From assembly GCA_002842135.1 (NCBI GenBank), contig PHCD01000011.1, positions 1 to 39,675 of the forward strand: a stretch of DNA of 39,675 nt, read 5' to 3'. Both the position numbers and the translations under genes were made by a program. The notes below the pieces were generated by a model. It worked only from the letters and a program-made list of their open reading frames with translations. It ran no database searches and was not told where the DNA came from. Each line of letters begins with the position of its first letter. Position 1 is the first letter of the stretch. Positions 1-39,385 of this stretch are shown here, in pieces. Source of the DNA: Betaproteobacteria bacterium HGW-Betaproteobacteria-8 (GTDB lineage Bacteria > Pseudomonadota > Gammaproteobacteria > Burkholderiales > Methylophilaceae).

Positions 1-41
1 GCATTACAAGTGCGCTGCTCTACCAACTGAGCTAATCCGGC
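1..41 (-). tRNA. tRNA-Thr (anticodon TGT), 3' part cut off by window edge
   Basis: Read on the minus strand, the first 41 bases give the acceptor 5' strand GCCGGAT, a D-arm with AGCTCAGTTGGTAGAGCA, and an anticodon stem-loop with loop CTTGTAA. The anticodon is therefore TGU, decoding ACA threonine. The 3' side of the anticodon stem, the T-arm and the acceptor end lie outside the window. It follows sspB in the same direction. Confidence 0.9.
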
Positions 42-22992: not shown

Positions 22993-24684
22993 ATGCCAAT
23001 CAAACTACTCGCCGAAAAAACCAGCAACCTGTTCCACCGTATGTCACTGGGCCTCATGCTTTTAACACTGCATATCGTCCTGGTTTGGGGTTTTGATGGT
23101 AACTTGCAAAAAGCATTCCTGATTTGCCATTACGGATTCTTTTTGCTGTGGCAACCGATCTGGCGCACGCAGGCTTCCCTCTCCCACTTTGCCTCGGCCT
23201 TGTTTATTGCGGGCGGACTGTTGCTTACCTATTACATGAGCTGGTGGCTGATGGCCTTCTGGGTTGCCGTCCTGTTTGGCTTGTTAGGCGGGCGCGTATT
23301 TTCCAGCAAAACCAGAAGCCGCCTGGCCTACCTGTTTGCCGCAGGCTATCTGCTAACCATGCTGTTGCTATGGGTGGTACCGAAGTTACTGGGCAGCGCC
23401 CAGGATATTGCCATTACCGAGTTTATCGTGACCTTTCTCATGCCTCTGCTGCCGGTTGCCATCCTCATCGCCGCGTCAGAGAATTCCAACGACCCCTCAT
23501 CACCTCCCACACTGGATTTTTTCTATACGCTGCTGCTGTTATTGCTGGCCGTGATACTGGTACTTGGCAGTTACGCTATCGAGACATCCAGCGGGGCAAG
23601 CTACACCCTGGTCCTGGCAAAAGTGCTGTTTGGCCTGGCCTTCGCCTTGCTGGCAATCAGCTGGCTGTGGAATCCGCGCGCCGGTTTTGCCGGCATCGGC
23701 CACTTGCTTTCACGCTACCTGCTGAGCCTGGGCCTGCCGTTCGAACTATGGCTGAAAAATATTGCGGAGCTGGCCGAACAGAAGAATACGCCAAAAGACT
23801 TTATTGAGTCCGCCATGCATGAAATCGCCACCCTGCCCTGGGTCAGCGGCATAAGCTGGGATGCGCCCGAAGGCCGCGGGGAGTTGGGCGTTATGAGCAA
23901 ACATTACTCCGATATCGACTTTCATGGTGTGCACATGCGCCTCTACACCCGCTTTGCACTGACGCCCGCTCTCGCCCTGCACCTGAAGCTGCTGACGCAA
24001 GTGCTGGGAGAGTTCTATGAAGCAAAACGTCGTGAAGAAACCCTGCAGCAAAACGCCTATATGCAGGCGGTTTATGAAACCGGCGCACGCCTGACCCACG
24101 ACATCAAGAATATCGTGCAATCCATGAGCGCTCTATGCAGTGCCGCCGAACTCACGCCAAATGATGATGACGCCCTTCTGGCAGACCTGATTCGCCGCCA
24201 GTTACCGAAAATGAACCAGCGCCTGGCACTCACGCTGGACAAGCTGCAAGCACCAAACAGCGCGAGCAACCGCCGGGTAAAACTAGCGGACTGGTGGCTC
24301 AACCTGCAACAGCGGCATCATCAAACCAAGGTCCAGTTCCTGTCCGGGAAACTGCCCGACATTGAAGTGGACGATGAGGTACTGGATAGCGTAGTGGATA
24401 ACCTGCTGCAGAATGCCATCGAGAAATCCCGCAATGAGGCAAACATCGAGATTGAGGCCGAGCTGGGTGTTGGCGAGAACTTCAGCATCGAAGTATCGGA
24501 CTCCGGCAATGCCATGCCGCAGGACAAGGCAGAGCGCTTGTTCAAGCACCATGTGCGCTCTGAAAATGGCCTGGGGATCGGGCTCTATCATGCAGCGAGG
24601 CAAGCAAAACAGGCCGGTTACTCGCTAAGCCTGGTGAATAACCAGAATGGCGAGGTGCGGTTCCGGCTCGCACAGGAATCCTGA
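22993..24684 (+). CDS. Multi-pass membrane sensor histidine kinase (orphan)
   Basis: The 563-residue protein has seven or eight predicted membrane helices (from about residues 18-34 to 208-226), a cytoplasmic region of about 100 residues that may be GAF-like (250-345), then a kinase core. The H-box is LTHDIKNIVQSM with phospho-acceptor His369; the HDxKN form resembles the PrsK-like group rather than PilS. The N-box (DNLLQNAIEKS), G1 (EVSDSGNAMPQ) and G2 (GLGIGLYHAARQ) of the ATPase domain follow. No response regulator gene is adjacent. It is divergent from the pilin gene across a 208-bp region with shared control elements. The signal it senses is unknown. Confidence 0.88.
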   Translation: MPIKLLAEKTSNLFHRMSLGLMLLTLHIVLVWGFDGNLQKAFLICHYGFFLLWQPIWRTQASLSHFASALFIAGGLLLTYYMSWWLMAFWVAVLFGLLGGRVFSSKTRSRLAYLFAAGYLLTMLLLWVVPKLLGSAQDIAITEFIVTFLMPLLPVAILIAASENSNDPSSPPTLDFFYTLLLLLLAVILVLGSYAIETSSGASYTLVLAKVLFGLAFALLAISWLWNPRAGFAGIGHLLSRYLLSLGLPFELWLKNIAELAEQKNTPKDFIESAMHEIATLPWVSGISWDAPEGRGELGVMSKHYSDIDFHGVHMRLYTRFALTPALALHLKLLTQVLGEFYEAKRREETLQQNAYMQAVYETGARLTHDIKNIVQSMSALCSAAELTPNDDDALLADLIRRQLPKMNQRLALTLDKLQAPNSASNRRVKLADWWLNLQQRHHQTKVQFLSGKLPDIEVDDEVLDSVVDNLLQNAIEKSRNEANIEIEAELGVGENFSIEVSDSGNAMPQDKAERLFKHHVRSENGLGIGLYHAARQAKQAGYSLSLVNNQNGEVRFRLAQES

Positions 24685-24710
24685 TCTTCAAAGGCAATAT
24701 CCAGTCCAAT

Positions 24711-24742
24711 AAAAAAGCCAGGCTTTAAAGCCTGGCTTTTTT
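24711..24742. terminator. Bidirectional terminator between the histidine kinase and ccsB
   Basis: A fully symmetric 32-base palindrome: A6, GCCAGGC, TTTAAA, GCCTGGC, T6. It serves both convergent genes, the kinase (stop 24684) and ccsB (stop 24763). Confidence 0.95.
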
Positions 24743-24762
24743 ATTGTTTATTGCAGCTTTTT

Positions 24763-25908
24763 TTACAGCTCACCGTAAGAGTGCAAGCCCGAAAGGAACA
24801 TGTTGACACCGATAAAGGCAAAGGTCGTCACCAGCAGGCCAATGACCGCCCACCAGGCCAGGACAGGACCGCGCATGCCCTTGACCAGCCGCAGATGCAG
24901 CCATGCAGCATAATTCAGCCAGACGATCAGCGCCCAGGTTTCCTTGGGGTCCCATGACCAGTAGCCACCCCAGGCCTCAGCTGCCCACATGGCACCGAGA
25001 ATGGTGGCAATGGTAAAAAAGGCAAAGCCGATGGCGATTGCCTTGTACATCACATCATCCATGGTCTCGAGCGAAGGCAGGCGCGAAGTAAGGAAACCTT
25101 TGGCCGAGAGCAAATAGGCAGCACCGACCATGGCCGCCAATGAGAATGCGCCGTAACCGATAAAATTGGCCGGCACGTGTATCTTCATCCAGTAGGATTG
25201 CAGTGCAGGCACCAAGGGCTGAATGGTGTGTGCCTGACGATCAAAGATGTACCAGAGAATGAAACCGACAGCGGCACTGACAATCAGCATGACAAAACCA
25301 CCCAGCTGGCGGGTAGCATAACGCTGCTCATAATAGAGATACAAGAGGGCGGTAATCAGGCAGAACAGGATGAAAACTTCATATAGATTGCTGACCGGGA
25401 TATGGCCGACATCCGGCGCAATCAGGTAGGACTCATACCAGCGCACCATCATGCCGACAAAACCCATCAGGACGGCCGTCCAGGCAAGCGAGGAGGCGAA
25501 TTTCCCGGTGAATTCAGAACGGTTAAACAAGGCAAGCCAATAAGCGGCTGTGGCGAGAATGAACAGCACATTCATCCACATGATGGCCGACTGACTCGAA
25601 ATCAGGAACTTGAGGAAAAAGACCTGTTCCGCTTTCTGCAGGTCTGCATCGTAGAGCGAAATGGCGAAGATACTGAGCACACCCACAGCCGCGACCAGCG
25701 CACGCACCGGCTTCCATACCCAACCCAGCCAGATGAAAGTCAGCGCAGCGCCGAACAGGAAGCCCTGCTCATAGACATCCATATGATGGTTATATTGGTT
25801 AAAGGCAAAGAGCGCGCCAATCACCAGCACGATGGCATACAACCAGTCTTTCCAATCCAGACGTTTCAATAGTGGAATTGGTTCATCATTGATTAAAACG
25901 TTGTCCAT
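24763..25908 (-). CDS. ccsB: System II cytochrome c maturation protein CcsB/ResC
   Basis: CcsB with ResB exports heme and attaches it to apocytochromes c on the outer face of the membrane. The product is 381 residues from the ATG at 25908, which has GGGG 6-7 bases upstream. It has about eight membrane helices and the heme-handling WWD-type motif (WAAEAWGGYWSWDPKETWAL, near residues 318-337), flanked by conserved histidines (for example KIHVPANFIGYGAF). It lies 29 bp after resB. Confidence 0.95.
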   Translation of the reverse strand: MDNVLINDEPIPLLKRLDWKDWLYAIVLVIGALFAFNQYNHHMDVYEQGFLFGAALTFIWLGWVWKPVRALVAAVGVLSIFAISLYDADLQKAEQVFFLKFLISSQSAIMWMNVLFILATAAYWLALFNRSEFTGKFASSLAWTAVLMGFVGMMVRWYESYLIAPDVGHIPVSNLYEVFILFCLITALLYLYYEQRYATRQLGGFVMLIVSAAVGFILWYIFDRQAHTIQPLVPALQSYWMKIHVPANFIGYGAFSLAAMVGAAYLLSAKGFLTSRLPSLETMDDVMYKAIAIGFAFFTIATILGAMWAAEAWGGYWSWDPKETWALIVWLNYAAWLHLRLVKGMRGPVLAWWAVIGLLVTTFAFIGVNMFLSGLHSYGEL

Positions 25909-25937
25909 GGTATTCCCCAAAAATAGATAAACAACTG

Positions 25938-27902
25938 CTACGCCAGCAGGCGCTGCAGTTGCTCTTGATAGCGTGCGAACTCAATATCCAGATCACGATT
26001 CTTGCGATTAGAGGATATGGCAAACAATACCCGGTTATCGGGTTTGACCAGCAACCAGATTCGTCGTTCACGAATATAGATCATGGAAAAAATACCGAGA
26101 ACCAGCAAAACAGAACCGGTATAAACCAGGTTTTTGCCCGGAGAACGTGTCAGTTGCAGACCACTCGCTTCGCGGTGCTCGTATTCCTTCAACTGCAGGT
26201 AGAACGGGGTGCCATAAAAAAACAGGTCACTCAGACTGTTAAGGCTGTCCTGCAAAAACAGCATGGTTTGTTCATCAGGCTCTGATGGGGTCTTGCCGGC
26301 ACGTTCACGCGCCAGATTATGCGCTTCGAATGCAGCCCCATTGATGATTTTGATATAGGTTTGGGCCGCATTGCCGCGCTCTTTTTCCGGAACCGACTCT
26401 TCAATCAGGCTGGCAATCCGCGTATAACCGCCTTTGCCGAAGGCGTCCAGCAATTGCCGCACGCTGGATTCAAACTTCTCTTTCATGTCCTTACTGGCGG
26501 CATCACCCGTCAAAGCACTGGCAGACAGGCGACGGGCGATCTCGGCATGCGAGGCCTCGTCCATCATTACCGCGCGCAAACGCATGAAGCCCTCGATTTC
26601 AAAATCCTCATCCACCGGGATACGCAAATACTTGAACTCTGCCTGCAGATCAGGCCGCATGCCGGAAACGAAATAGTGTCTATCATCCAGCTTCAGCGGC
26701 TGCATGTAACTCACATACTCACGGGCCTGACCCTGCGTATCGCGCACCTTGAATGTGACATTGGGGCCGACGTTATGCGGCTTGCCTTTGCCATCAGGGG
26801 AAAGATTGAGGATATTGAATTTACGGAAGTCATCAAATTCTATCGTCAGCGCAGCATCGCCTTCGCCCAGCGTCACTTCCTTGTGGATCGTACCCTTGAC
26901 CGGCAACGGTGTCTGCTGTTGGCTGAACAGCCCCCACAGATTGAAATCCAGGTTGGAACCGCCATCCTGAAAATCGGATTGGTAGATAGCGATACCTTTA
27001 TAGATTAAAGGCTTGTTAACACTGATGGTCGCTTCCAGCGGTTCCGCCAGGTCAGGGTCGGATATGACCAGGTCGCTCTCGAACGATTTGGGCTGGCCGG
27101 TGGCATAGTGTTCGATACGAAAATCCTTCAGCGCTACCCGGAATGGCAGCTCCTGCACCAGATAGCCATCGCGCATGCGCATGAAAGCAACATCGGCACT
27201 AGTGCCTTCTGGCAGGGTCATATTGGCACGGAAAGACAGATTCGCGATTGACAAGCGGCTTTCAGCCGGCACTTCCGAAGCAGCGATATCCAGCGTCTCG
27301 ACCTTCTTATAGCCCAGCAGCTCCTGAATCTTGAATGGCACATTGCCATCTATCAGGCCGCCCACACAGATCACCACGATGGCCACGTGTGTAAATATAT
27401 AGCCCAGACGTTGGTAGCTGCCTGCTTTTGCTGCAATCAGTTCGCCACCGTCTTTTTGCTGTACCGTTTTGAAGCGGAAGCCGCGTGCCGTCAGGAAACG
27501 TGCGAGCTTCGTCTTGACTTCTTCCGCCGTGCCGCTCGCCTGGTATTCGTGCTGATGACTGAAAGCGCGCAGCGATTTTTCCGTGGCATGTTCGCGCCAG
27601 ACACGCATCTCGCGCAGCATGGTGGGGGAGTTACGATAAACACAGAGGCTGGTGGAAGTAACAAGGAACAGCAGGATCAGCAGAAACCAGACGCTGTGAT
27701 AAACATCGTAAAGACCCAGCACTTCAAAGAGCTCGAACCAGAACTGGCCGAATTGCACGATGTAATTGGTATAGGGCTCGTTCTGCTTGAGCACGGTACC
27801 AATAATGGAAGCTATACCCAACACGGTCAGCAAGCTGACAGCGAAGCGCATGGAGCTCAACAGTTCATATATGCGTTTGGAAGTGGTTTGATGGGACTTC
27901 AA
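25938..27902 (-). CDS. resB: System II cytochrome c maturation protein ResB
   Basis: ResB is the partner of CcsB in System II heme ligation. The 654-residue protein has membrane helices at about 17-36, 66-85 and 165-185, a large periplasmic domain (about 190-590) and a final helix near 600 (NLVYTGSVLLVLGIFSMIYI). The N-terminal RIYELLSSMRFAVSLLTVLGIASIIGT-type start and the helix-flanking histidines fit the family. Expected clients in this window are cytochrome c1 and cytochrome c4, the latter encoded directly upstream. Confidence 0.95.
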   Translation of the reverse strand: MKSHQTTSKRIYELLSSMRFAVSLLTVLGIASIIGTVLKQNEPYTNYIVQFGQFWFELFEVLGLYDVYHSVWFLLILLFLVTSTSLCVYRNSPTMLREMRVWREHATEKSLRAFSHQHEYQASGTAEEVKTKLARFLTARGFRFKTVQQKDGGELIAAKAGSYQRLGYIFTHVAIVVICVGGLIDGNVPFKIQELLGYKKVETLDIAASEVPAESRLSIANLSFRANMTLPEGTSADVAFMRMRDGYLVQELPFRVALKDFRIEHYATGQPKSFESDLVISDPDLAEPLEATISVNKPLIYKGIAIYQSDFQDGGSNLDFNLWGLFSQQQTPLPVKGTIHKEVTLGEGDAALTIEFDDFRKFNILNLSPDGKGKPHNVGPNVTFKVRDTQGQAREYVSYMQPLKLDDRHYFVSGMRPDLQAEFKYLRIPVDEDFEIEGFMRLRAVMMDEASHAEIARRLSASALTGDAASKDMKEKFESSVRQLLDAFGKGGYTRIASLIEESVPEKERGNAAQTYIKIINGAAFEAHNLARERAGKTPSEPDEQTMLFLQDSLNSLSDLFFYGTPFYLQLKEYEHREASGLQLTRSPGKNLVYTGSVLLVLGIFSMIYIRERRIWLLVKPDNRVLFAISSNRKNRDLDIEFARYQEQLQRLLA

Positions 27903-28019
27903 GGCTTGATCGTTTCAGTCGAGTTTGATAATCGGAGTTTAGGACATTCTTCCAGCCCATGAGTTGCCTGACCGGCAGAATTAAATAATCAGGGTTTAAA
28001 TTCCTGGCGCCGGATAAAG

Positions 28020-28045
28020 TTAAGGGCGGCAAACGCCACCCTTAA
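28020..28045 (-). terminator. Possible hairpin terminator after cytochrome c4
   Basis: Arms TTAAGGG (28020-28026) and CCCTTAA (28039-28045) enclose a 3-bp inner stem with one mismatch. Only a weak CTTTATCC follows on the minus strand, so it may be a processing hairpin or a partial terminator before resB. Confidence 0.45.
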
Positions 28046-28071
28046 CCAGAACCTGATCGATATCCGTTTGC

Positions 28072-28680
28072 TTAACGCAAGCCCTGAATGTAATCAGCAA
28101 CTGCAGCGATATCTTCATCACTCATCTTGCCAGCGATCATGCGCATCATCTTGGCTGCATCATTTGCACGTTCACCCGAGCGGAAGGTCTTCAGCTGCGC
28201 AATAGTGTATTCAGCATGCTGGCCTGCAAAACGCGGAAACTGCACTGGCACGCCAGCACCGGCAGGACCGTGACAGGATGCACAGGCTGGAACACCCATA
28301 CCGGCGATCCCTGATTTGAAGATTTTTTCGCCTGCGGAGCCCTTGCCATTGGATTGGGCTGTACCGCCTTTAGGTGCCTGGCTTGCATAGTATGCACCGA
28401 GGTTATCCATATCTTGCGGTGTCAGCGTTGTGACCATACCGGCCATCACTGCATTCTTGCGTTCGCCGGATTTGAAATTTTTCAGTTGCTTGGCAATATA
28501 TTCTGGATGCTGGCCAGCCAGTTTCGGGTACATGGGAATCATGCTGTTGCCATCGGCACCGTGACAAGCCAGGCAAACCTGATTAGCAATTGTGGCGCCC
28601 TTGCCTGCATCACCAGCAGCGTTGGCAGAAACGGCACTGAACAAACCTAACGCAAATGCCGCAAATATACGGAAACTCAT
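28072..28680 (-). CDS. Diheme cytochrome c4
   Basis: Cytochrome c4 is a periplasmic diheme electron carrier from the bc1 complex to terminal oxidases. The product is 202 residues from the ATG at 28680 (GGAG 8 bases upstream). It has a signal peptide cut near SANAAG (about residue 22) and two class I cytochrome domains with heme sites CLACH (36-40) and CASCH (133-137), each followed by the paired PKLAGQH / PRFAGQH motif and candidate axial methionines (VMAGMV, KMMRMIAG). Confidence 0.95.
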   Translation of the reverse strand: MSFRIFAAFALGLFSAVSANAAGDAGKGATIANQVCLACHGADGNSMIPMYPKLAGQHPEYIAKQLKNFKSGERKNAVMAGMVTTLTPQDMDNLGAYYASQAPKGGTAQSNGKGSAGEKIFKSGIAGMGVPACASCHGPAGAGVPVQFPRFAGQHAEYTIAQLKTFRSGERANDAAKMMRMIAGKMSDEDIAAVADYIQGLR

Positions 28681-28807
28681 ACCCGACTCCTCAGTACTCA
28701 ACAGTTGATACAAAATGGTTACACAACAATAATCGCGCTATTTTATCGAAAAGCGTCATATCGTGATAGCATTTTCCACTCTTCAGCGCTTTATAAGTTT
28801 ATCTCTC

Positions 28808-29491
28808 ATGCCCCTGTTTCAAAATGCCAGCTTTTACATTTCCGCGCACAACCTGCGTGACCTGCCTCCCCCTGCGGGTATCGAGGTCGCGTTCGCGGGG
28901 CGCTCCAATGCCGGCAAATCCAGCGCACTCAACACCCTGGCCAACCACAACCGGCTTGCCTATGTCAGTAAGCAGCCTGGACGCACGCAACTGATCAACT
29001 TTTTCACACTGGGCGATGAGCGCTTTCTGGTCGACCTGCCGGGTTACGAACTGATCAACTTTTTCACACTGGGCGATGAGCGCTTTCTGGTCGACCTGCC
29101 GGGTTACGGTTATGCAAAAGTGCCGCAAGCCATGCGCGAACACTGGCAGATGACGCTGTCCGCCTATCTCAGTTACCGCACCTCATTACACGGCCTGGTG
29201 CTGGTCATGGACTGCCGCCATCCGCTCACACCGCTGGACCGGAAAATGCTGGACTGGTTCTGCCCCAGCGGCAAGCCTGTGCATGTTTTGTTGACCAAGT
29301 CCGACAAGCTCTCCCGCAACGCTGCCAATCAGACCCTGCAGGCAGTGAAAAAGGAACTGAACGAGACTTGGGGAAATTGCACGGTACAACTCTTTTCCAG
29401 CTTGAAGAAACAGGGCGTGGAAGAGGCCGAAAAGATCATCGGCCAGTGGTTATTTGCGGATGAAGATAAGATCCCAGACACCGTGGCCTAG
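28808..29491 (+). CDS. engB: Ribosome-biogenesis GTPase EngB/YihA with an internal 20-residue duplication
   Basis: EngB is a TRAFAC GTPase needed for large ribosomal subunit assembly and usually essential. From the ATG at 28808 (best match to family N-termini, though with poor SD; a GTG at 28763 is open) it is 227 residues. G1 is GRSNAGKSS (31-39), G4 is TKSDK and G5 is FSSLKKQG. G3 occurs twice: DLPGYE (76-81) and DLPGYG (96-101), because residues 62-81 are repeated exactly at 82-101, apart from the final Glu/Gly. Without the repeat the length is 207, normal for the family. The reading frame is kept. The 3' end overlaps trmB tail-to-tail by 42 bp. Confidence 0.93.
28989..29108 (+). repeat. 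Perfect 60-bp tandem duplication inside engB
   Basis: Bases 28989-29048 and 29049-29108 are identical over all 60 positions, both starting AACTGATCAACTTTTTCACA and ending GGGTTACG. The unit is a multiple of three, so the frame is intact. Confidence 0.98.
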
Positions 29492-30154
29492 ATTCAGGCC
29501 GCGCTTCTCGAACTTGGTCAGCGGCCGGTAATCCGGTCGCGGGGCATAATCCTTCGCGGTGTTTTCCAGCAACGGTTCAGCACTCAGCACCTCCAGCACC
29601 CATTCCGCATACTCTTGCCAATCTGTCGCCACATGAATGTAAGCGCCCGCTTTCAGCTTGCTGCACAGCATGCTGATGAACGCCGGCTGAATCAAGCGTC
29701 GCTTGTTATGGCGTTTTTTATGCCAAGGGTCGGGGAAAAAGATATGCACACCATCCAGCGCACCATCGGCAATCATGTTGTTCAGCACTTCCACTGCGTC
29801 GTGCTGAACCAGCCGTAGGTTGGTCAGCTGTGATGCCTCGATCAGCCTGAGCAGATTGCCGACACCAGGGCCGTGCACCTCGATACCCAGATAGTCGATA
29901 TGCGGGTTGGTCGCGGCGATGGCTGCCGTGCTGTCGCCCATGCCGAATCCGATCTCCAGAATCTTGCAGCTTTCTGTACGGCCGAACAGGGCATCCAGTA
30001 CCAGCAACTCCGGTTTGTAGGCAACGCCAAAACGCGGCATATTGGTTTCGATCGCACGTTGCTGGGCAGGCGTCAAACGCCCCTGACGCAGGACAAAACT
30101 GCGTATCGGCCGGTGTTTCAAATCCTCGTTTGCGGTCTCGTCTTTTTCGGACAT
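29450..30154 (-). CDS. trmB: tRNA (guanine-N7-)-methyltransferase TrmB
   Basis: TrmB methylates G46 of tRNAs using SAM. The 234-residue protein has the SAM motif [16 protein letters not shown] (about residues 70-85), [14 protein letters not shown] and the catalytic/tRNA-binding [18 protein letters not shown] (about 140-157). The C-terminal GHGVWDLIF matches the family end, so the 42-bp tail overlap with engB is genuine and not a missed stop. Confidence 0.96.
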
Positions 30155-30226
30155 GATAATCTGCGCTCAATAATAAGGCGGCGATTATACCTGAGTCGTT
30201 CAGGGCGGTTTCTTCGAACGCTCCTG

Positions 30227-31384
30227 TTAGAGCGTATGCGACCGGTCGCCCTGCATGAAACCAATAAGCGAACGCTCACATCGCTTGCCCAGTGCCATCA
30301 CCTTGAACAACTCACCCATCTCGGCTGGCGACAATAGTTTCTGTGCCTGTGATGCAAGTGGCGCATAAAGCGCCATGTCGTGCGGTGAAACGCGACTTAG
30401 CAGCTCTGTAATGCCGCAGTTGATGAGAAACTGCGCTTGGCCGCAATAACCCTTCAACTCCAGGCCATTCACCTGTGCCACCTGCGCCACAGCGCTGAAA
30501 TCAACATGCGCCGTGATGTCCTGCAAACCGGGATAGAGAAAAGGGTCATCATGGGCATGATGCCGGTAATGGCACATCAGGGTGCCCTGATTGCGTTGAG
30601 GATGGTAATACTCGCGCCGCGGGAAGCCGTAATCAATGAACAGCATGACCCCGCTTTCCAGCACCTGCGCAAGACTGCTCACCAGCCCGTTGGCTGCCGG
30701 GCAGAGCTCCGTCACATAATCAGGCGGCAAATCCAGTCCGGCAAGCAAGGCCTGCAGTTGTTTGTTGACCAACGGCCGCTCCGTCCAGGCAAAGCCCTGC
30801 TCACTCGCAACGACACCCAGTTCCAACGGCCCGCCAACCGAAGTCTTGACGACATGCACCGGCAGGGCATCCAGCACCTCATTGGCCAGAATCATGCCGC
30901 TGAAATTCTCAGGCAAGGCATCCAACCACTGCACCCTGCTCAAAAGTTCTGGCGACAACTTGGCCGCCAGCGTCTGTTGCTGCACCTCACGTAAATAAGC
31001 ACTTACTTCCAGAATCAGGTAACGCCCCGGTACCCGTTGCAACCGCTCCAGTTCAAGCAACAGCTCGGCGGCAAGACTGCCAGTACCTGCACCCAGTTCG
31101 AGAAGGTCGCCCGACGTAGCCTCCAGCACCTGTGTCGCCTGCCTTGCCAGACATTGCGCGAACAGCGGCGAGATCTCCGGCGCCGTGACAAAATCCCCGC
31201 CATGCCCGAACTTTTTTGCCCCGCCGCTGTAATAACCTAGCCCCGGCGCATACAATGCAAGTTGCATGTAGCGGGCGAAATCGATCCAGCCCTGGTTCCC
31301 GGCAATCTCCGTTCTGATTTTTTGTGCCAGCATTTCGCTGTGCGCGATGGCTTCAGCGTCCGGGGCAGGTAAGGTAGCGTTCAT
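30227..31384 (-). CDS. SAM-dependent methyltransferase, MidA/NDUFAF7 family (COG1565)
   Basis: The eukaryotic relative NDUFAF7 dimethylates an arginine in complex I; the bacterial substrate is not established. The 385-residue protein has the family N-terminal pattern (FARYMQLALYAPGLGYYSGG and FGHGGDFVTAPEISPLFAQC), SAM motif I LLELGAGTGSLAAELL (about residues 95-110), ILANEVLDALPVHVV and FIDYGFPRREYYHPQRNQGTL-type C-terminal segments. It is divergent from the folM-like gene. Confidence 0.93.
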   Translation of the reverse strand: MNATLPAPDAEAIAHSEMLAQKIRTEIAGNQGWIDFARYMQLALYAPGLGYYSGGAKKFGHGGDFVTAPEISPLFAQCLARQATQVLEATSGDLLELGAGTGSLAAELLLELERLQRVPGRYLILEVSAYLREVQQQTLAAKLSPELLSRVQWLDALPENFSGMILANEVLDALPVHVVKTSVGGPLELGVVASEQGFAWTERPLVNKQLQALLAGLDLPPDYVTELCPAANGLVSSLAQVLESGVMLFIDYGFPRREYYHPQRNQGTLMCHYRHHAHDDPFLYPGLQDITAHVDFSAVAQVAQVNGLELKGYCGQAQFLINCGITELLSRVSPHDMALYAPLASQAQKLLSPAEMGELFKVMALGKRCERSLIGFMQGDRSHTL

Positions 31385-31473
31385 AGACCCGGATTATAAT
31401 GGCTTGGCAAGCTAGCCAGTTTTTTTGACAAGTTTTTTTAATAGCGCCATTTTTTGATATTTAAAGGCATTCA

Positions 31474-32250
31474 TTGGAATTCAGCGTGAGCGATAGCACA
31501 GAAAACAGCCTTGAGAATAAAGTCATCCTCATCACCGGCGGTGCCAAACGCGTGGGCGCAGCCATTTGCCGCATGCTGCACGCCGGTGGCGCCAAATTGA
31601 TGATCCACTACCGGCAATCTGCCTCCGAAGCACGCGCACTACAAGCCGAACTCAACCTGCAACGGCCGAACTCAGTCGCCATCATTCACGGCGACCTGCT
31701 CAACCTGGCCGTACTGCCCAAGCTGGTGCAAGAGACCGTGCAGCATTTCGGCCGTCTCGACGTGCTGATCAACAATGCCTCCAGCTATTACGCCACCGAA
31801 CTGGGCGACATCGGCGACGACCAGTGGCAAGACCTGATCGGCTCCAACCTGAAAGCGCCGCTGTTCCTGTCACAGGCCGCCGCTGCCGAACTGGCCAAGA
31901 CCAGAGGCTGCATCGTCAACATCACGGATATGCATGTGGAACGCCCGAAAAAAGGCTACGTCGTCTACAGTGTGGCCAAGGCCGGACTTGTTACCCTGAC
32001 CAAATCGCTGGCGCACGAGATGGCACCCGATGTCCGCGTCAACGCCGTGGCTCCCGGGCCAGTCATGTGGCCGGAAGACAACCCCCAGTTCGATGAAGTG
32101 TATCGAAAAAGAGTCATCTCGCAGACCCTGTTGAAACGCATCGGTGAAGGTGATGATGTCGCCAAGGCCGTCCGCTTCCTGATCCAGGACGCACCGTTCA
32201 TGACCGGGCAAGTGATCGCCGTCGATGGTGGCCGCTCGCTGAATCTTTGA
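31474..32250 (+). CDS. folM: Pteridine reductase / FolM-like short-chain dehydrogenase
   Basis: FolM-type SDRs reduce dihydromonapterin or dihydrofolate with NADPH. The protein is 258 residues from the TTG at 31474 (AAAGG 6 bases before) or 254 from the GTG at 31486 (GGAA 6 bases before). It has the pteridine-reductase cofactor motif TGGAKRVG in place of the usual SDR glycine loop, the INNASS segment, catalytic YSVAK and the C-terminal GQVIAVDGGRSLNL. It is the last conserved gene before the CRISPR locus. The symbol folM is a family-level choice. Confidence 0.9.
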   Translation: MEFSVSDSTENSLENKVILITGGAKRVGAAICRMLHAGGAKLMIHYRQSASEARALQAELNLQRPNSVAIIHGDLLNLAVLPKLVQETVQHFGRLDVLINNASSYYATELGDIGDDQWQDLIGSNLKAPLFLSQAAAAELAKTRGCIVNITDMHVERPKKGYVVYSVAKAGLVTLTKSLAHEMAPDVRVNAVAPGPVMWPEDNPQFDEVYRKRVISQTLLKRIGEGDDVAKAVRFLIQDAPFMTGQVIAVDGGRSLNL

Positions 32251-32314: not shown

Positions 32315-32831
32315 ACCGATACGAGGTTGTAGCTCCCTCTCTCACCCCGGATAAACTACAATCACGCGGCAGAGTTCTACACCATAACCGCGGTTGTAGC
32401 TCCCTCTCTCACCCCGGATAAACTACAATGCAAACCCTCTAAGTAATCCCGCCATGCGGGTTGTAGCTCCCTCTCTCACCCCGGATAAACTACAATGATA
32501 CTCGCTCAATTAGCTTGGTGCCGTTGGTTGTAGCTCCCTCTCTCACCCCGGATAAACTACAATAGGCGATGGGCTATCCAACGCTGTGTATATGTTGTAG
32601 CTCCCTCTCTCACCCCGGATAAACTACAATGCCGAGAGCAGCGCAGCCCAGGTGTGGCCGGTTGTAGCTCCCTCTCTCACCCCGGATAAACTACAATTGG
32701 GGCGTCATGCATCCGGTAAGTAGAAAAGTTGTAGCTCCCTCTCTCACCCCGGATAAACTACAATTGACGCCGGAATTGATGGCGGAACTGAAAGGTTGTA
32801 GCTCCCTCTCTCACCCCGGATAAACTACAAT

Positions 32832-32861
32832 CATCAAGGAGTGAATCATGAAATCTGAAGA
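32832..32861 (+). other. Spacer 8 (related to spacer 19)
   Basis: Begins CATCAAGGAGTGAATCATGA and ends CTGAAGA. It contains a ribosome site (AAGGAG) and an ATG, so it was probably taken from the start of a phage or plasmid gene. Confidence 0.8.
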
Positions 32862-33568
32862 GTTGTAGCTCCCTCTCTCACCCCGGATAAACTACAATCT
32901 GCAGCCGATCAGTACCAGCGGGAGGGCTGTTGTAGCTCCCTCTCTCACCCCGGATAAACTACAATCCTCACAGGTTTAACATTCCATCCGAAGCGGTTGT
33001 AGCTCCCTCTCTCACCCCGGATAAACTACAATCAGTTACGGCGGTTGGTTCAAGCCCTTTCGGTTGTAGCTCCCTCTCTCACCCCGGATAAACTACAATA
33101 ACGGCCGTTTGTTCCGCGTAAGTGGTGTAGTTGTAGCTCCCTCTCTCACCCCGGATAAACTACAATGAATTCATCGACTGGCCTGTACGTGCAGCTGTTG
33201 TAGCTCCCTCTCTCACCCCGGATAAACTACAATCCACGGTGTACGATGATTCATGCGATGAACGTTGTAGCTCCCTCTCTCACCCCGGATAAACTACAAT
33301 GCGGACGGTGAGGTCAAGCGCAAAGGTGAGGTTGTAGCTCCCTCTCTCACCCCGGATAAACTACAATGTGGGCGTTAGCTGTGCCGCCGCCCAATCCGTT
33401 GTAGCTCCCTCTCTCACCCCGGATAAACTACAATTGGAGAACCCTTCACCATTTATCGTTCAGGGTTGTAGCTCCCTCTCTCACCCCGGATAAACTACAA
33501 TGTTCGACCCGGAGCCGAACACCAAGGAAGTGTTGTAGCTCCCTCTCTCACCCCGGATAAACTACAAT

Positions 33569-33598
33569 AACCATCAAGGAGTGAATCATGACTGAAGA
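33569..33598 (+). other. Spacer 19 (related to spacer 8)
   Basis: Shares the 20-mer CATCAAGGAGTGAATCATGA with spacer 8 and also ends CTGAAGA. The two differ by an in-frame 3-bp indel after the ATG, and spacer 19 extends 3 bases further at the 5' side. Confidence 0.8.
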
Positions 33599-34439
33599 GT
33601 TGTAGCTCCCTCTCTCACCCCGGATAAACTACAATATAGAGTTGGCGGTGGTGGAAGGCCATGGCGTTGTAGCTCCCTCTCTCACCCCGGATAAACTACA
33701 ATAAAACACAGACTAGCCTCTGATTATCGGAAGTTGTAGCTCCCTCTCTCACCCCGGATAAACTACAATTAGGCGTGCCAATTTCAGCGAAAGCTTCCGG
33801 TTGTAGCTCCCTCTCTCACCCCGGATAAACTACAATACGGTACGCCGGCCGAGCGAAGCCGCGGTGGTTGTAGCTCCCTCTCTCACCCCGGATAAACTAC
33901 AATACATCGCCAAAGATTGATGAACGGTAAGCAGTTGTAGCTCCCTCTCTCACCCCGGATAAACTACAATATTCGATAAAAACAATCCAGAGCATATTGA
34001 GTTGTAGCTCCCTCTCTCACCCCGGATAAACTACAATGAACCCCCTTGATTTACCTGCAAAACAGAAGTTGTAGCTCCCTCTCTCACCCCGGATAAACTA
34101 CAATAATTGACCGGCAAGCTGCTGAATTGCGCGAGTTGTAGCTCCCTCTCTCACCCCGGATAAACTACAATGAACAGGAACCTGATGGAGCGCCGACAGA
34201 GGTTGTAGCTCCCTCTCTCACCCCGGATAAACTACAATAAGCCCAGGGCAAAGGTGATTATCAGGAGGGTTGTAGCTCCCTCTCTCACCCCGGATAAACT
34301 ACAATGGTTAAGTATTTACCAATCGCCCCAGCACTGTTGTAGCTCCCTCTCTCACCCCGGATAAACTACAATGAAAATGCAAAGTGTGTCTGCATCCAGT
34401 GAGTTGTAGCTCCCTCTCTCACCCCGGATAAACTACAAT

Positions 34440-34469
34440 AGCTGCTGCTATCCCCAGCAGCAGCGGAGC
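34440..34469 (+). other. Spacer 32 with a strong internal hairpin
   Basis: GCTGCTGCT and AGCAGCAGC form a 9-bp perfect stem around ATCCCC within this one spacer. The source could be a hairpin or terminator in a mobile element. Confidence 0.75.
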
Positions 34470-34652
34470 GTTGTAGCTCCCTCTCTCACCCCGGATAAAC
34501 TACAATACTGCTGTAGCAGGAAAAGCATGGGAGACAGTTGTAGCTCCCTCTCTCACCCCGGATAAACTACAATAGTAGCCATGCAGCCCCCAACAAGCCA
34601 ATCGTTGTAGCTCCCTCTCTCACCCCGGATAAACTACAATAGGCTCTCACCT

Positions 34653-34701: not shown

Positions 34702-35034
34702 CTAAAAGAGAATCATCTGGTTGGCCTTAATGGCTTTTTCCTGGAAAAGTGGTAGGCCAACCAACAACTTCATGCTCGCATATTGTTTTTCTGTCACGGT
34801 TAACACACGGACTGAACCATCAGAGGGGAGATTGGATACTAAACGCTGCATATGCTTTTCTTCTGCATCACGTCCATTCAAGATACGACCATATACAGAA
34901 AACTGAATCATATCGAAGCCATCATTCAGCAAATAACGACGAAACACGGTATAAGCCCTGCGCTCGGCTTTAGTGACTACAGGCAGATCAAAAAACACGA
35001 GCATGCGCATATATCGTCGTGTCTCCGCGCTCAT
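34702..35034 (-). CDS. cas2: CRISPR-associated endonuclease Cas2
   Basis: Cas2 is the structural partner of Cas1 in spacer integration. The 110-residue protein has the ferredoxin-like start MRMLVFFDLPVVTKAERRAYTVFRRYL, with Asp at the conserved acidic position, then FDMIQFSVYGRIL and the C-terminal strand with VLTVTEKQYASMKLLVG. Length and sequence are typical for type II. It lies 3 bp after cas1 and is the last cas gene; no csn2 or cas4 follows, hence II-C. Confidence 0.96.
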   Translation of the reverse strand: MSAETRRYMRMLVFFDLPVVTKAERRAYTVFRRYLLNDGFDMIQFSVYGRILNGRDAEEKHMQRLVSNLPSDGSVRVLTVTEKQYASMKLLVGLPLFQEKAIKANQMILF

Positions 35035-35037
35035 GGC

Positions 35038-35952
35038 TTACATTTCAAAGCCATGCTGACGCAAGCCTATTAAGACGGGCAACTCTAAAACACTTTCATT
35101 AGCGCCATCAAACAGACGGACTAGAGATTCAGTGGCTTGCTCAATGCTAGAAAGCACACTCATATTGCCGCGCGGCATTTGTACATCGACATTGAGCAAC
35201 CCTACTAACGCCACTTTATCAGCAGGTGCTAAATCAACTTCTGGCAATGCATGTGGGTTAATGTGTTGGAATACGTGTAAATCTACCAAGGCACGGTAAG
35301 GCTCAATCAAATCATCAGCCAGATTGAAAGCGTTTTGCTCGCTACGATGAAACAACCCGATGTTGGGCTGAAAACCATGCGCTACCAGAGCACGCGTGAT
35401 GGCGCCACGAATAATCGCGTAGCCGTAATCCAGCGCAGCATTAACCCAACAATCTTTAGCACGATGAAAACCAGTACCGAATATCTGTGGAAAGTAATAG
35501 CTACTGGCCTGTGCCTCCATATTTTCAGGGTCCCCAGACCGTACACGACTAGCATAAGACTCAAGCCGCTCAATATCACCACGCTTAACTAACTTTAAGC
35601 ATTTCGCCTGATTGCTGATTTTTACTTTGACAATCTCAGCCCATGCCCGCTTGGCTTGCGGCTTATCAATATCCAGTTGTAAACGCATCATGCGCGTAGC
35701 GCGACTATGGCTTAAAAATGGCACAAACACGCCATTTGGCTGGTGGTTATCGCCGGTGGAATAAAGCCCGATACCATATTCACCACAAGCAGATAGCACT
35801 GGATGCGTAATCGTGATTTCACGATTATTCAACACAATCACCGCAATATCTTCAAACGGTACACGGGCAGATTGCTGCTGCTCGATGACAAGCGAAAAAT
35901 GCTCGCGCTTGAGCTTAGCTGGTTGAGAGATAACGACGCTACGCCAGACCAC
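35038..35952 (-). CDS. cas1: CRISPR-associated endonuclease Cas1
   Basis: Cas1 is the integrase for new spacers. The 304-residue protein starts MVWRSVVISQPAKLKREHFSL and has PFEDIAVIVLNNREITIT, the family pattern of type II Cas1. Metal-ligand candidates follow in the alpha-helical domain: Glu in NMEAQASSYYFPQIFG (near residue 146), His in NIGLFHRSEQNAFNLADDLIEPYRALVD (near 205), and acidic residues in the last part of that stretch. Its start overlaps the cas9 end by 14 bp, so cas9-cas1-cas2 is one operon. Confidence 0.97.
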   Translation of the reverse strand: MVWRSVVISQPAKLKREHFSLVIEQQQSARVPFEDIAVIVLNNREITITHPVLSACGEYGIGLYSTGDNHQPNGVFVPFLSHSRATRMMRLQLDIDKPQAKRAWAEIVKVKISNQAKCLKLVKRGDIERLESYASRVRSGDPENMEAQASSYYFPQIFGTGFHRAKDCWVNAALDYGYAIIRGAITRALVAHGFQPNIGLFHRSEQNAFNLADDLIEPYRALVDLHVFQHINPHALPEVDLAPADKVALVGLLNVDVQMPRGNMSVLSSIEQATESLVRLFDGANESVLELPVLIGLRQHGFEM

Positions 35953-38900
35953 GTCGCTCTTCTTTCAATACGGGATAAATATTGCCAAGGACATCAACGT
36001 TAAATTTTTCTACTGCTAAAGCAGTTTTAACGCCAATGCCGCGAATCAAACCACTTTTACCAACAGAAGCATTTCTATCTTGCGCCCATACATTAATTGC
36101 CCCAGTCGCTCTATCACATCCAGAGTAGTAGCCAGTTTGGATTTCAGATTTCAAAGTAACTTTCACAAAGTCATTTGGATACAAGGAAAAACAAAAATCA
36201 AAACTCTCGTCAATCAGCGTCCACTCATCCTCATCTTTAAATGCCACAACCGCTCTATCAGGTAATGTTTTAGCCACCGCATGATGCACATACACAGGCA
36301 CCAAGTGAAATTTATTGGCTTTGGTAAACACATCCACCCGTAGCATGGTGTCATTTTTGGCAACACCATGACGAATGGAAATACCAGATAGCTTGTCAAT
36401 CACCATCGTGACAGTGCGCACTATGGGGCCAGCTGAGCCATCGTTCATGGGTTTACGCGGCAACGCCCTCAAGCGTTCAATCTCAGCCCTTTCATCCATG
36501 GTGAGCGCTCGTTTTTCTTTACCGCGGCCAGCACTAGCTTCGATCTCTTTCGCGCGCTTTTCTCGTTCATCTTTACCTTGCAGCCAAATTGCTATTGCGG
36601 CGTAGAGTTTTTCATTGCGATGCGGATCAATCAGCTTGCAATTAACGCGCTCACCATCAATAACTTCACCTAAGTCTTTGAGTGATAAATTCGTCACAAC
36701 GACTTTTTGTGTCACGCTCCCCATTTTCCTCAAACGCTCGGTCTGCCCGTAAATGGTTTCCTTATGTGCTGCCCCACTGTTTCGCCGTTGCGGCGCACGA
36801 GAGACAAACAAAGGCTTGACGCTTTCCAACTCATCTTCTGAATAAGTGCCTAGATTCGCCAGTTCGGCTTTCATCAATAGCCAATCATCCACCAATCGCC
36901 TTGCCTCCAACTCTTGCCTGAAATGTGGCCATGGGTCTGGGAAGTGTTCTTTCAATTGCTGATACATGGCAGGATTAGCAATCTCACCCGTCGTCACATC
37001 GACAAAGCCTTCGCTAACTTTTTCTAGCTCTTTGCGCCGTGAATAATCGGACAATCGCTTCACCATGCCATGACTGCACGCAGCCACCACGGCCGCATCC
37101 AACGCATGATGGCGGTCACTATCGGCGCGGACTTTGGTTAAACCCCATCGTGCACGTAAAAAGGCGGTCATTTGTCCGCTCAATACCACGCATCGCTTTG
37201 CTTCACTGGTGTCAGCTAATTGCAAGAATTGCTCGACATAGTTTTTGAAAAAACGGCAAATGTAGCGCGTGTCGTTGAGATTTCTGTCGCGAAACTCAGC
37301 AGAATCTTCTTTACCGAACTCTTTGCGCAGCAGCCTACTGCGCTTGGCTTGGCGGTAAGCTTTATTGCTGTTGACAGACACTTCAAACTGATGCCAGCGC
37401 TCACTATTGTTTTTGCCATCCAGATATTCGTAAGGAGTCTGGTTGCCTTTATTGCGGTTTTCGCGCGCCAATACCAACACACGATTATTTTTGCTGTCAT
37501 CAAAGCTGCGGGAATACGGCAATGCATGGTCAATTTCTACATAGCCCATTTCAAATAACCGGTGTATGTCCAAAGTCTCACGCGAATAGGCGCATTTACA
37601 CTCTTGTTCCTCGTACAACTGCCACTTCTCGAAGTCACGACCTTTCAAGTCACCAGATGCATTGAAGGTTTCATTGAATTTATCGCGAGCAATTTTATTG
37701 CGGTCACGAAAATCTTCCTGAGCATCTTTAATCTTACGGCGCTCATCGAGTGGCCTAGATAAATCACGTGCCATTTCAATATTGACCTGATGCGGAGAGC
37801 CGTATTTTTTAATCAACGCGTTCATGACTTTTCGCGCTTGATTAAGCGCTCGAAGTACCACTGGGTTACGCGGCACGTCAATATTTTCATTGAAAATCAG
37901 CTTGCCTGTTTTATCACGCGCGCTATAAAACGGCGGCAGATAGTGCAGTTTTTCATCGTCCGGCTTGATTAGTTGACTATGGTGATACCCAGCCTCAATG
38001 CAAGCCTCGTCATAGCGTAAGCCGCGCTCCATATGCGGGACAATTTTGCGTAAAGCCTTAAGCGACAAATTGCTGAATTTGTCAAAGCGTATACCTTGCA
38101 AGACCTCAACCATGTTGGTTTTGCTAGGTAAATTCAGTGCTTTCAACTCCCGTTCTACTTCTTCATCATCTTTATAGATGCTGAGCACCCATGCGATTTG
38201 ATCAAGCAAACTGGCATCCCCCGACATGGCAGCGTTCACCATGCCTTGCCATTCCGTTTCCAAACCTGCGTCTTTTAAAGTTTTTCGCAACTCTTGAAAG
38301 GCGGGTATTTTTATCAGTGTGGCAGTTTCTGGGTCTTTGGCTTTGCCCTCTTTGAGTTGATTCAAGCTCGGATAACTCAATCCGGTAAAGCGTGCAGTTT
38401 CTGGCCAGAGGCCTTGCTTAACCATCGCTGCTTTGAGTTGTTTGTAGGTAAGATCACTTGCCTGATTGTATGGAAGTGACAAAGTAAATTGGCGCTCGGC
38501 CTCATTGAGTGGGCGGGTAATGCCATCCATCACCACCCGCAAATTGTTAAGTCGGGTCAGCCAAACATGACGCTCGGCTGTAAAACTGGCTTTGGGTGCT
38601 CGGTATTCGGATTTCTCAAACGTACATTTTCCAAGCATTTTCAATAAAGCTTCACCCGCTAGCGCAGGTTTTTGCGCCCAAAATAATCCTGTTTTGCGGT
38701 CGAGCAGTTTGATTTCTAACTCAGAACTTGCGTAGGGATTATTCATCGCCCGCTGCGCTGCAAACAACATGGAGAATTCCTCGCTCAATAAAGCTCGACT
38801 CAAAGCCTTACTGTATTCACCCTGTTTATTGCGCTGCGCTTGGGGAAACTCTGCCAGCACCATCTCGGCAGCGGTTCGATAACCTTTTTCTTTCATTAAC

Positions 38901-39385
38901 CGAGCTGTTGCTGCAAGTCCCTGCTTAACCTTGCCACTCTCACCTGCGGTATCTGCCTCGGCTTTTTTCTCTTCTGCCTTACTGACCCAATGAAAACCAC
39001 GGTGTTTACATAAATGGTAAATAACACGTGCCCATTCCTCTGCATTAAGTGTGCGATCTAATGCTTGTTTACGCAGCTCCCATAATGAAACAGTAAACGG
39101 ATGTTCAGGCTTGAATATCGTGACATCGTTAATTAGGCCATGTCTTTTAAGGAGACGCGCCACTTTGGTCAATCGCCATGCCCTACGACGTAAACGACGG
39201 CGCATCAAACGCGCGGTGCGTCTTGCGAGATTCAGCGACTCACCCTCTTTGGCCGTCTCGGCTTTGTCAAAGCACCGCACTCCCAAATCCACAACCCGGC
39301 GTTCATTCAGTACAGCCCAGCCAACAGATGCAATACCAATATCAAACCCGAAGGTCAATTGACCAAAATTGTTATTGTTGTTCAT
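35939..39385 (-). CDS. cas9: Type II-C CRISPR effector nuclease Cas9 (Nme-like)
   Basis: This is an RNA-guided DNA nuclease using crRNA and tracrRNA. Of 1148 residues: RuvC-I with Asp15 (FGFDIGIASVGWA), arginine-rich bridge helix (about 55-80), recognition lobe, RuvC-II with Glu537 (VNIEMARDL), HNH with Asp619-His620 (EIDHALPYSRSFDD) and the following NRNKGNQTPYEY, then RuvC-III with His760 and Asp763 (RHHALDAAVVA). The WED/PAM-interacting part (about 900-1148) ends GIGVKTALAVEKFNVD as in Nme Cas9. All catalytic residues are present, so it should be active. It is about 66 residues longer than Nme Cas9 (1082), partly through a charged insert near 939-976. AGGGGA lies 7 bases before the ATG. 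Confidence 0.98.
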   Translation of the reverse strand: MNNNNNFGQLTFGFDIGIASVGWAVLNERRVVDLGVRCFDKAETAKEGESLNLARRTARLMRRRLRRRAWRLTKVARLLKRHGLINDVTIFKPEHPFTVSLWELRKQALDRTLNAEEWARVIYHLCKHRGFHWVSKAEEKKAEADTAGESGKVKQGLAATARLMKEKGYRTAAEMVLAEFPQAQRNKQGEYSKALSRALLSEEFSMLFAAQRAMNNPYASSELEIKLLDRKTGLFWAQKPALAGEALLKMLGKCTFEKSEYRAPKASFTAERHVWLTRLNNLRVVMDGITRPLNEAERQFTLSLPYNQASDLTYKQLKAAMVKQGLWPETARFTGLSYPSLNQLKEGKAKDPETATLIKIPAFQELRKTLKDAGLETEWQGMVNAAMSGDASLLDQIAWVLSIYKDDEEVERELKALNLPSKTNMVEVLQGIRFDKFSNLSLKALRKIVPHMERGLRYDEACIEAGYHHSQLIKPDDEKLHYLPPFYSARDKTGKLIFNENIDVPRNPVVLRALNQARKVMNALIKKYGSPHQVNIEMARDLSRPLDERRKIKDAQEDFRDRNKIARDKFNETFNASGDLKGRDFEKWQLYEEQECKCAYSRETLDIHRLFEMGYVEIDHALPYSRSFDDSKNNRVLVLARENRNKGNQTPYEYLDGKNNSERWHQFEVSVNSNKAYRQAKRSRLLRKEFGKEDSAEFRDRNLNDTRYICRFFKNYVEQFLQLADTSEAKRCVVLSGQMTAFLRARWGLTKVRADSDRHHALDAAVVAACSHGMVKRLSDYSRRKELEKVSEGFVDVTTGEIANPAMYQQLKEHFPDPWPHFRQELEARRLVDDWLLMKAELANLGTYSEDELESVKPLFVSRAPQRRNSGAAHKETIYGQTERLRKMGSVTQKVVVTNLSLKDLGEVIDGERVNCKLIDPHRNEKLYAAIAIWLQGKDEREKRAKEIEASAGRGKEKRALTMDERAEIERLRALPRKPMNDGSAGPIVRTVTMVIDKLSGISIRHGVAKNDTMLRVDVFTKANKFHLVPVYVHHAVAKTLPDRAVVAFKDEDEWTLIDESFDFCFSLYPNDFVKVTLKSEIQTGYYSGCDRATGAINVWAQDRNASVGKSGLIRGIGVKTALAVEKFNVDVLGNIYPVLKEERRGLA

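Follow-up and report, generated by a model that had tools for sequence, protein, structure and literature searches.

A perfect in-frame 60-bp duplication in engB most likely reflects an assembly artefact near a switch of lineage

The reading frame of the ribosome biogenesis GTPase EngB (engB/yihA/ysxC, TIGR03598; 28808–29491, + strand, 227 residues) contains an exact 60-bp tandem duplication that most likely is not biology. Judging from comparison with related sequences, the second 60-bp unit is very probably an artefact of assembly, because the repeat lies near a switch of lineage in the record and because an otherwise identical single-copy protein exists. The window, by which we mean the whole stretch of DNA analysed (39,675 bases), is apparently a complete contig, as its own EngB (P0001) is assigned a longest contig of just this length.

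The two units, 28989–29048 and 29049–29108 (both + strand), are identical at 60/60 bases, as determined by TRF and by direct comparison, and encode 20 residues each (62–81 and 82–101). The unit starts at the second base of codon 61, and the frame is kept open through both copies, from the ATG at 28808 to a stop codon ending at 29491. An earlier, sequence-only reading had described a perfect in-frame duplication at this position, and this description holds, with 20 residues added to the protein. The flanking bases do not lengthen the match (C at 28988 versus G at 29048, and G at 29109 versus A at 29049). Hence, the self-match run and the period are both 60, there are exactly two copies, and microhomology is absent at the joint. 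Owing to the joint, DLPGY is followed in copy 1 by Glu instead of Gly, which gives DLPGYE in the first copy and the native G3 in the second. All 33 EngB sequences of our alignment (A1) have Gly at the corresponding position (G101). The repeat is more than a chance match, because, once those wholly within the CRISPR array are set aside, the repeated exact 25-mers of the window (direct repeats only) are the 36 expected from a 60-base repeat, and because an exact tandem duplication with a period of 30–200 was found in 0/32 fetched loci (528,129 bases, partly overlapping and not all from close relatives).

The window EngB scores 256.2 bits against the NCBIfam equivalog profile TIGR03598 (cut-off 124.45). 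Its row in the alignment (P0001) contains GRSNAGKS (G31–S38), T60, DxPG (D96–G99, in addition to that of copy 1) and TKSD (163–166), which we take to be G1, the G2 Thr, G3 and G4 respectively. It thus has the G motifs and overall sequence in common with the EngB/YihA/YsxC GTPases (solved examples 5ucv, 4dhe and 1pui), but differs from these by the extra 20 residues, which fall between G2 and G3, and by the Glu replacing the invariant Gly after the first G3 copy. The distance from PG[RS]T to G3 is 35 residues in the window; among the 120 EngB relatives listed, which are the top-ranked of 7,999 scored proteins and include the window EngB, it is 15 in the remaining 119. The usual single G3 at short spacing after PG[RS]T is thus not seen in the window. 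Across 33 loci, the spacing is 15 in 27 cases and 16, 17 and 19 in one each, with 3 unreadable by motif search. A second unit was found in none of these 119 proteins and in none of the 30 readable loci; rarer cases lower in the family could have escaped, because the listing comprises the best 120 of the 7,999. No report of a duplicated G3 in EngB was found in the literature, the search being thin and no proof of absence. The spacing of 19, rather than 15, belongs to the EngB of locus L056 (genome G048), which has four extra residues between G2 and G3. This genome, in which the match is unsplit across the whole engB region, was considered as a duplicated relative and rejected, its hairpin being only four residues longer.

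A protein of 207 residues (P0007) matches the window EngB at every position, through its first 61 residues and then its last 146, and only the extra 20 are missing. It is found on 2 contigs, the longest of 216,376 bp (sources ncbi, jgi, lgn and ena), and the sample may differ from that of the window. Other near relatives also have one copy (P0011, 98% identical to the window EngB; P0002 and P0015, 97%). When searched against five close genomes (G001–G005), the window engB matches as two pieces. These abut at the duplication on the query side and share ~53–58 bases on the genome side, as would be expected for one copy there.

The window is a mosaic, its nearest kin changing close to the repeat. 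The relatives used to establish this are metagenome-assembled genomes, namely Betaproteobacteria bacterium HGW-Betaproteobacteria-2 (G001, locus L001), HGW-Betaproteobacteria-1 (G002, L002) and Methylophilaceae bacterium UBA7525 (G003, L003), with a further locus (L004) as outgroup. Both 1-kb bin identities and a site comparison divide the window into a left block (1–28591) of a lineage outside the G001–G003 group, and a right block (28671–32250) of a lineage close to G001/G002 and G003. From 0 to 28 kb the bins are 74–88% identical to G002 and 69–87% to G003 (aligned bases only), while bins 29 to 32 kb are about 90–93% identical to G001/G002 and 86–90% to G003. At 24001–28560 the window differs from L001, L002 and L003 by 20.8, 20.7 and 20.9%, only slightly below the 22.7% from L004; at 28660–30250 it differs from the first three by 8.0, 8.6 and 10.7%. 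It is the window and not the relatives that changes company, because the mutual differences of L001–L003 are 6.7–10.3% on the left and 2.5–9.9% on the right. Where L001–L003 share a letter that differs from that of L004, and the window carries either letter, the window sides with L001–L003 at 361/604 sites up to 28560, at 5/10 in 28561–28660 and at 188/205 beyond.

A change-point fit over 24–30.25 kb places the switch within 28592–28670, with a best estimate of 28605 and a likelihood ratio of 146.1. The maximum over 200 permutations was 16.7. Permutation proved too weak a control by itself, since the outgroup L004, through rate differences between genes alone, reaches up to 30.0 (at 24767) on the same 5,352 sites. 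The value for the window is far above both. Gene conservation fails to explain the switch, since the difference of L004 from the L001–L003 consensus is nearly flat across 28.6 kb (18.3% left, 15.8% right), whereas that of the window falls from 15.4% to 4.1%. The switch falls close to the start of a cytochrome c gene (ORF 28072–28713, - strand) and 384 bp before the first unit. A jump in identity exactly at the unit joint was considered and found to be wrong, as finer bins and the change-point fit both lead to 28605; BLAST pieces break at the joint because of the insertion. G+C content is uninformative as a sign of chimerism, the left and right stretches of the window both falling inside the spread of the relatives.

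These observations are best explained by a single troubled join. Two contigs, or two graph paths, from related Methylophilaceae would have met within engB, both ends carrying the same 60 bases as a k-mer-sized overlap. Concatenation by an assembler or scaffolder with the overlap kept twice (contig A ending in the unit, contig B starting with it, the two written in succession) would then give the observed repeat, while the organism itself presumably has one unit. The lineage switch 384 bp upstream would be part of the same join, and we regard both it and the unit joint as symptoms of one problematic stretch, the lineage change being near the joint and not at it. The repeat has the form of an uncollapsed overlap, i.e. 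exactly two copies with a self-match run equal to the period, and a run that ends without a shared base beyond it is as would result from a contig-end overlap written twice. Slippage or recombination at short homology usually leaves microhomology. A k of 60 or 61 is in use in assembly, and the 60 bases would fit either value. As 60 is a multiple of 3, an overlap of this length is always in frame, and the open reading frame is therefore no evidence for selection. In a contig of 39.7 kb, switch and duplication would come to lie no more than 0.4 kb apart with a chance of about 2%, by a hand estimate for a coincidence noticed after the fact.

Related assembly errors have been described. PMC7111523 reports perfect scaffold overlaps that are often n (IDBA-UD) or n-1 (metaSPAdes) bases long, n being the largest k-mer, and duplicate sequence, with Ns between the copies, that can remain where scaffolding overlooked overlapping flanks. 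The engB repeat resembles the latter as an exact, k-mer-like duplicate at an apparent join, and the window also changes lineage close by, but it has no Ns between the copies, unlike the case described there. The same paper portrays chimeras of two organisms as rare and recognisable by differing coverage or phylogenetic profiles on either side, and PMC3100316 has simulated metagenome assemblies giving chimeric contigs among related organisms. Against an artefact, the switch is 384 bp left of the joint rather than at it, so that chimera and duplication need two linked steps and not one. Furthermore, the lineage switch may stem from genuine recombination, 60 may differ from the k-mer size of the assembler, and blunt joints are also found in real duplications. 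The sequence-only reading had left three options for the duplication: a very recent event, a phase-variable state or an assembly error. The last is the best supported, since an otherwise identical single-copy protein exists, the switch is only 384 bp away, and run and period are both 60.

A variant of the artefact explanation, with odds that overlap those given above, keeps the mosaic as real and is possible, if clearly the less favoured course. Here, homologous recombination, crossing over near 28.6 kb, would have carried the right block, and perhaps the CRISPR-Cas II locus with it, into another species of Methylophilaceae, and the assembler would have stumbled with both versions in the sample. 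Gene order with the relatives is unbroken in the alignment through the switch, and at the place of the window's CRISPR-Cas locus G002 lacks an ORF of Cas9 size, both of which suit such a transfer. However, closer kin than G001–G003 for either block are absent among the matches listed (187 family genomes, 174 and 175 of which have a match), and a real mosaic still leaves the duplication itself unrescued. Among the best 120 matches listed in each case, the left-block sensor kinase has its nearest match (98% identical) on an 8.8-kb contig, and the nearest matches of the left-block cytochrome c are 90–93% identical.

That the 60-bp duplication is real, arose very recently in a natural strain and leaves EngB able to tolerate it is unlikely. 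In its favour, the frame is open with the remainder of EngB intact, and the protein still scores well above the TIGR03598 cut-off. Moreover, the G2–G3 length varies in nature, with spacings other than 15 in 3/30 readable loci. The largest such extension (+4 in L056) is nonetheless far below 20 residues, the single-copy protein with all other residues identical is present on two other contigs, a second case is absent among the 120 listed proteins and the 30 readable loci, and the joint is without microhomology. Were the duplication real, EngB would have to accommodate a segment located between switch I and switch II and extending into them in part; for the essential Bacillus subtilis YsxC, PMC12560758 assigns these to residues 45–65 and 75–103. 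The least damaging fold would probably maintain the native links from switch I to β2 (copy 1) and from β3 to switch II (copy 2), pairing β2 of the first copy with β3 of the second. The altered G3 of copy 1 would go unused, and the middle, with the 20 extra residues, would be extruded at the β2–β3 hairpin turn, where the natural length variants (up to +4) also appear to fall. That such a natural EngB exists, with the whole β2–β3 hairpin duplicated, outer strands drawn from different copies, a hairpin longer by 20 residues and an additional, altered G3 lying between the switches, is quite improbable; if true, it would offer a view, in a living organism, of an essential GTPase with a freshly duplicated segment. 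In T4 lysozyme, engineered tandem repeats reportedly give the repeated segment two registers, so that one copy can loop out. The likeness to a duplicated EngB would lie in the two registers and the loopable copy, but the lysozyme repeats were engineered and structurally solved, whereas the EngB duplication is a feature of the sequence record.

The proposal of a selected conditional or phase-variable allele, in which the two copies recombine and EngB activity is switched on or off as a unit is gained or lost, is highly improbable and finds no support, because 60 bases are 20 codons and leave the frame unswitched and because the two units occur in none of the other 119 listed relatives (best 120 of 7,999), so that neither a frame switch nor a copy number varying among relatives is seen; perfect direct repeats can in general collapse through slippage or recombination, but toggling an essential ribosome assembly GTPase would bring no evident benefit.

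If the second unit is an artefact, as we favour, engB provides a worked example of how the overlap of two contig ends can be mistaken for an in-frame duplication, here in an essential gene; a real duplication would instead test, in a way rarely offered by nature, how a GTPase core takes a duplicated switch-flanking hairpin. A caution attaches to the 39.7-kb record itself. As it changes lineage near 28.6 kb, the co-occurrence of genes on the left and right supports no inference, and the organism that owns, for example, the CRISPR-Cas locus cannot be deduced from it.

This locus comprises a CRISPR array at 32322–34642 (about 34 units, period 67), followed at 34702–39385 by a small ORF at the cas2 position (34702–35034, 110 aa), a type II cas1 (TIGR03639) and a 1148-aa Cas9 (TIGR01865). 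Judged by ORF size, no Cas9-sized frame is present at the corresponding place in G002, and G003 matches the stretch from 35 to 39 kb at about 64–70%. The last 42 bp of engB (29450–29491) are shared with the 3' end of a convergent ORF at 29450–30154, presumably trmB by its appearance. At the left contig end, positions 1–41 (- strand) hold a cut-off tRNA gene, which scores 29.9 bits against Rfam RF00005 (gathering score 29) and is not called by ARAGORN.
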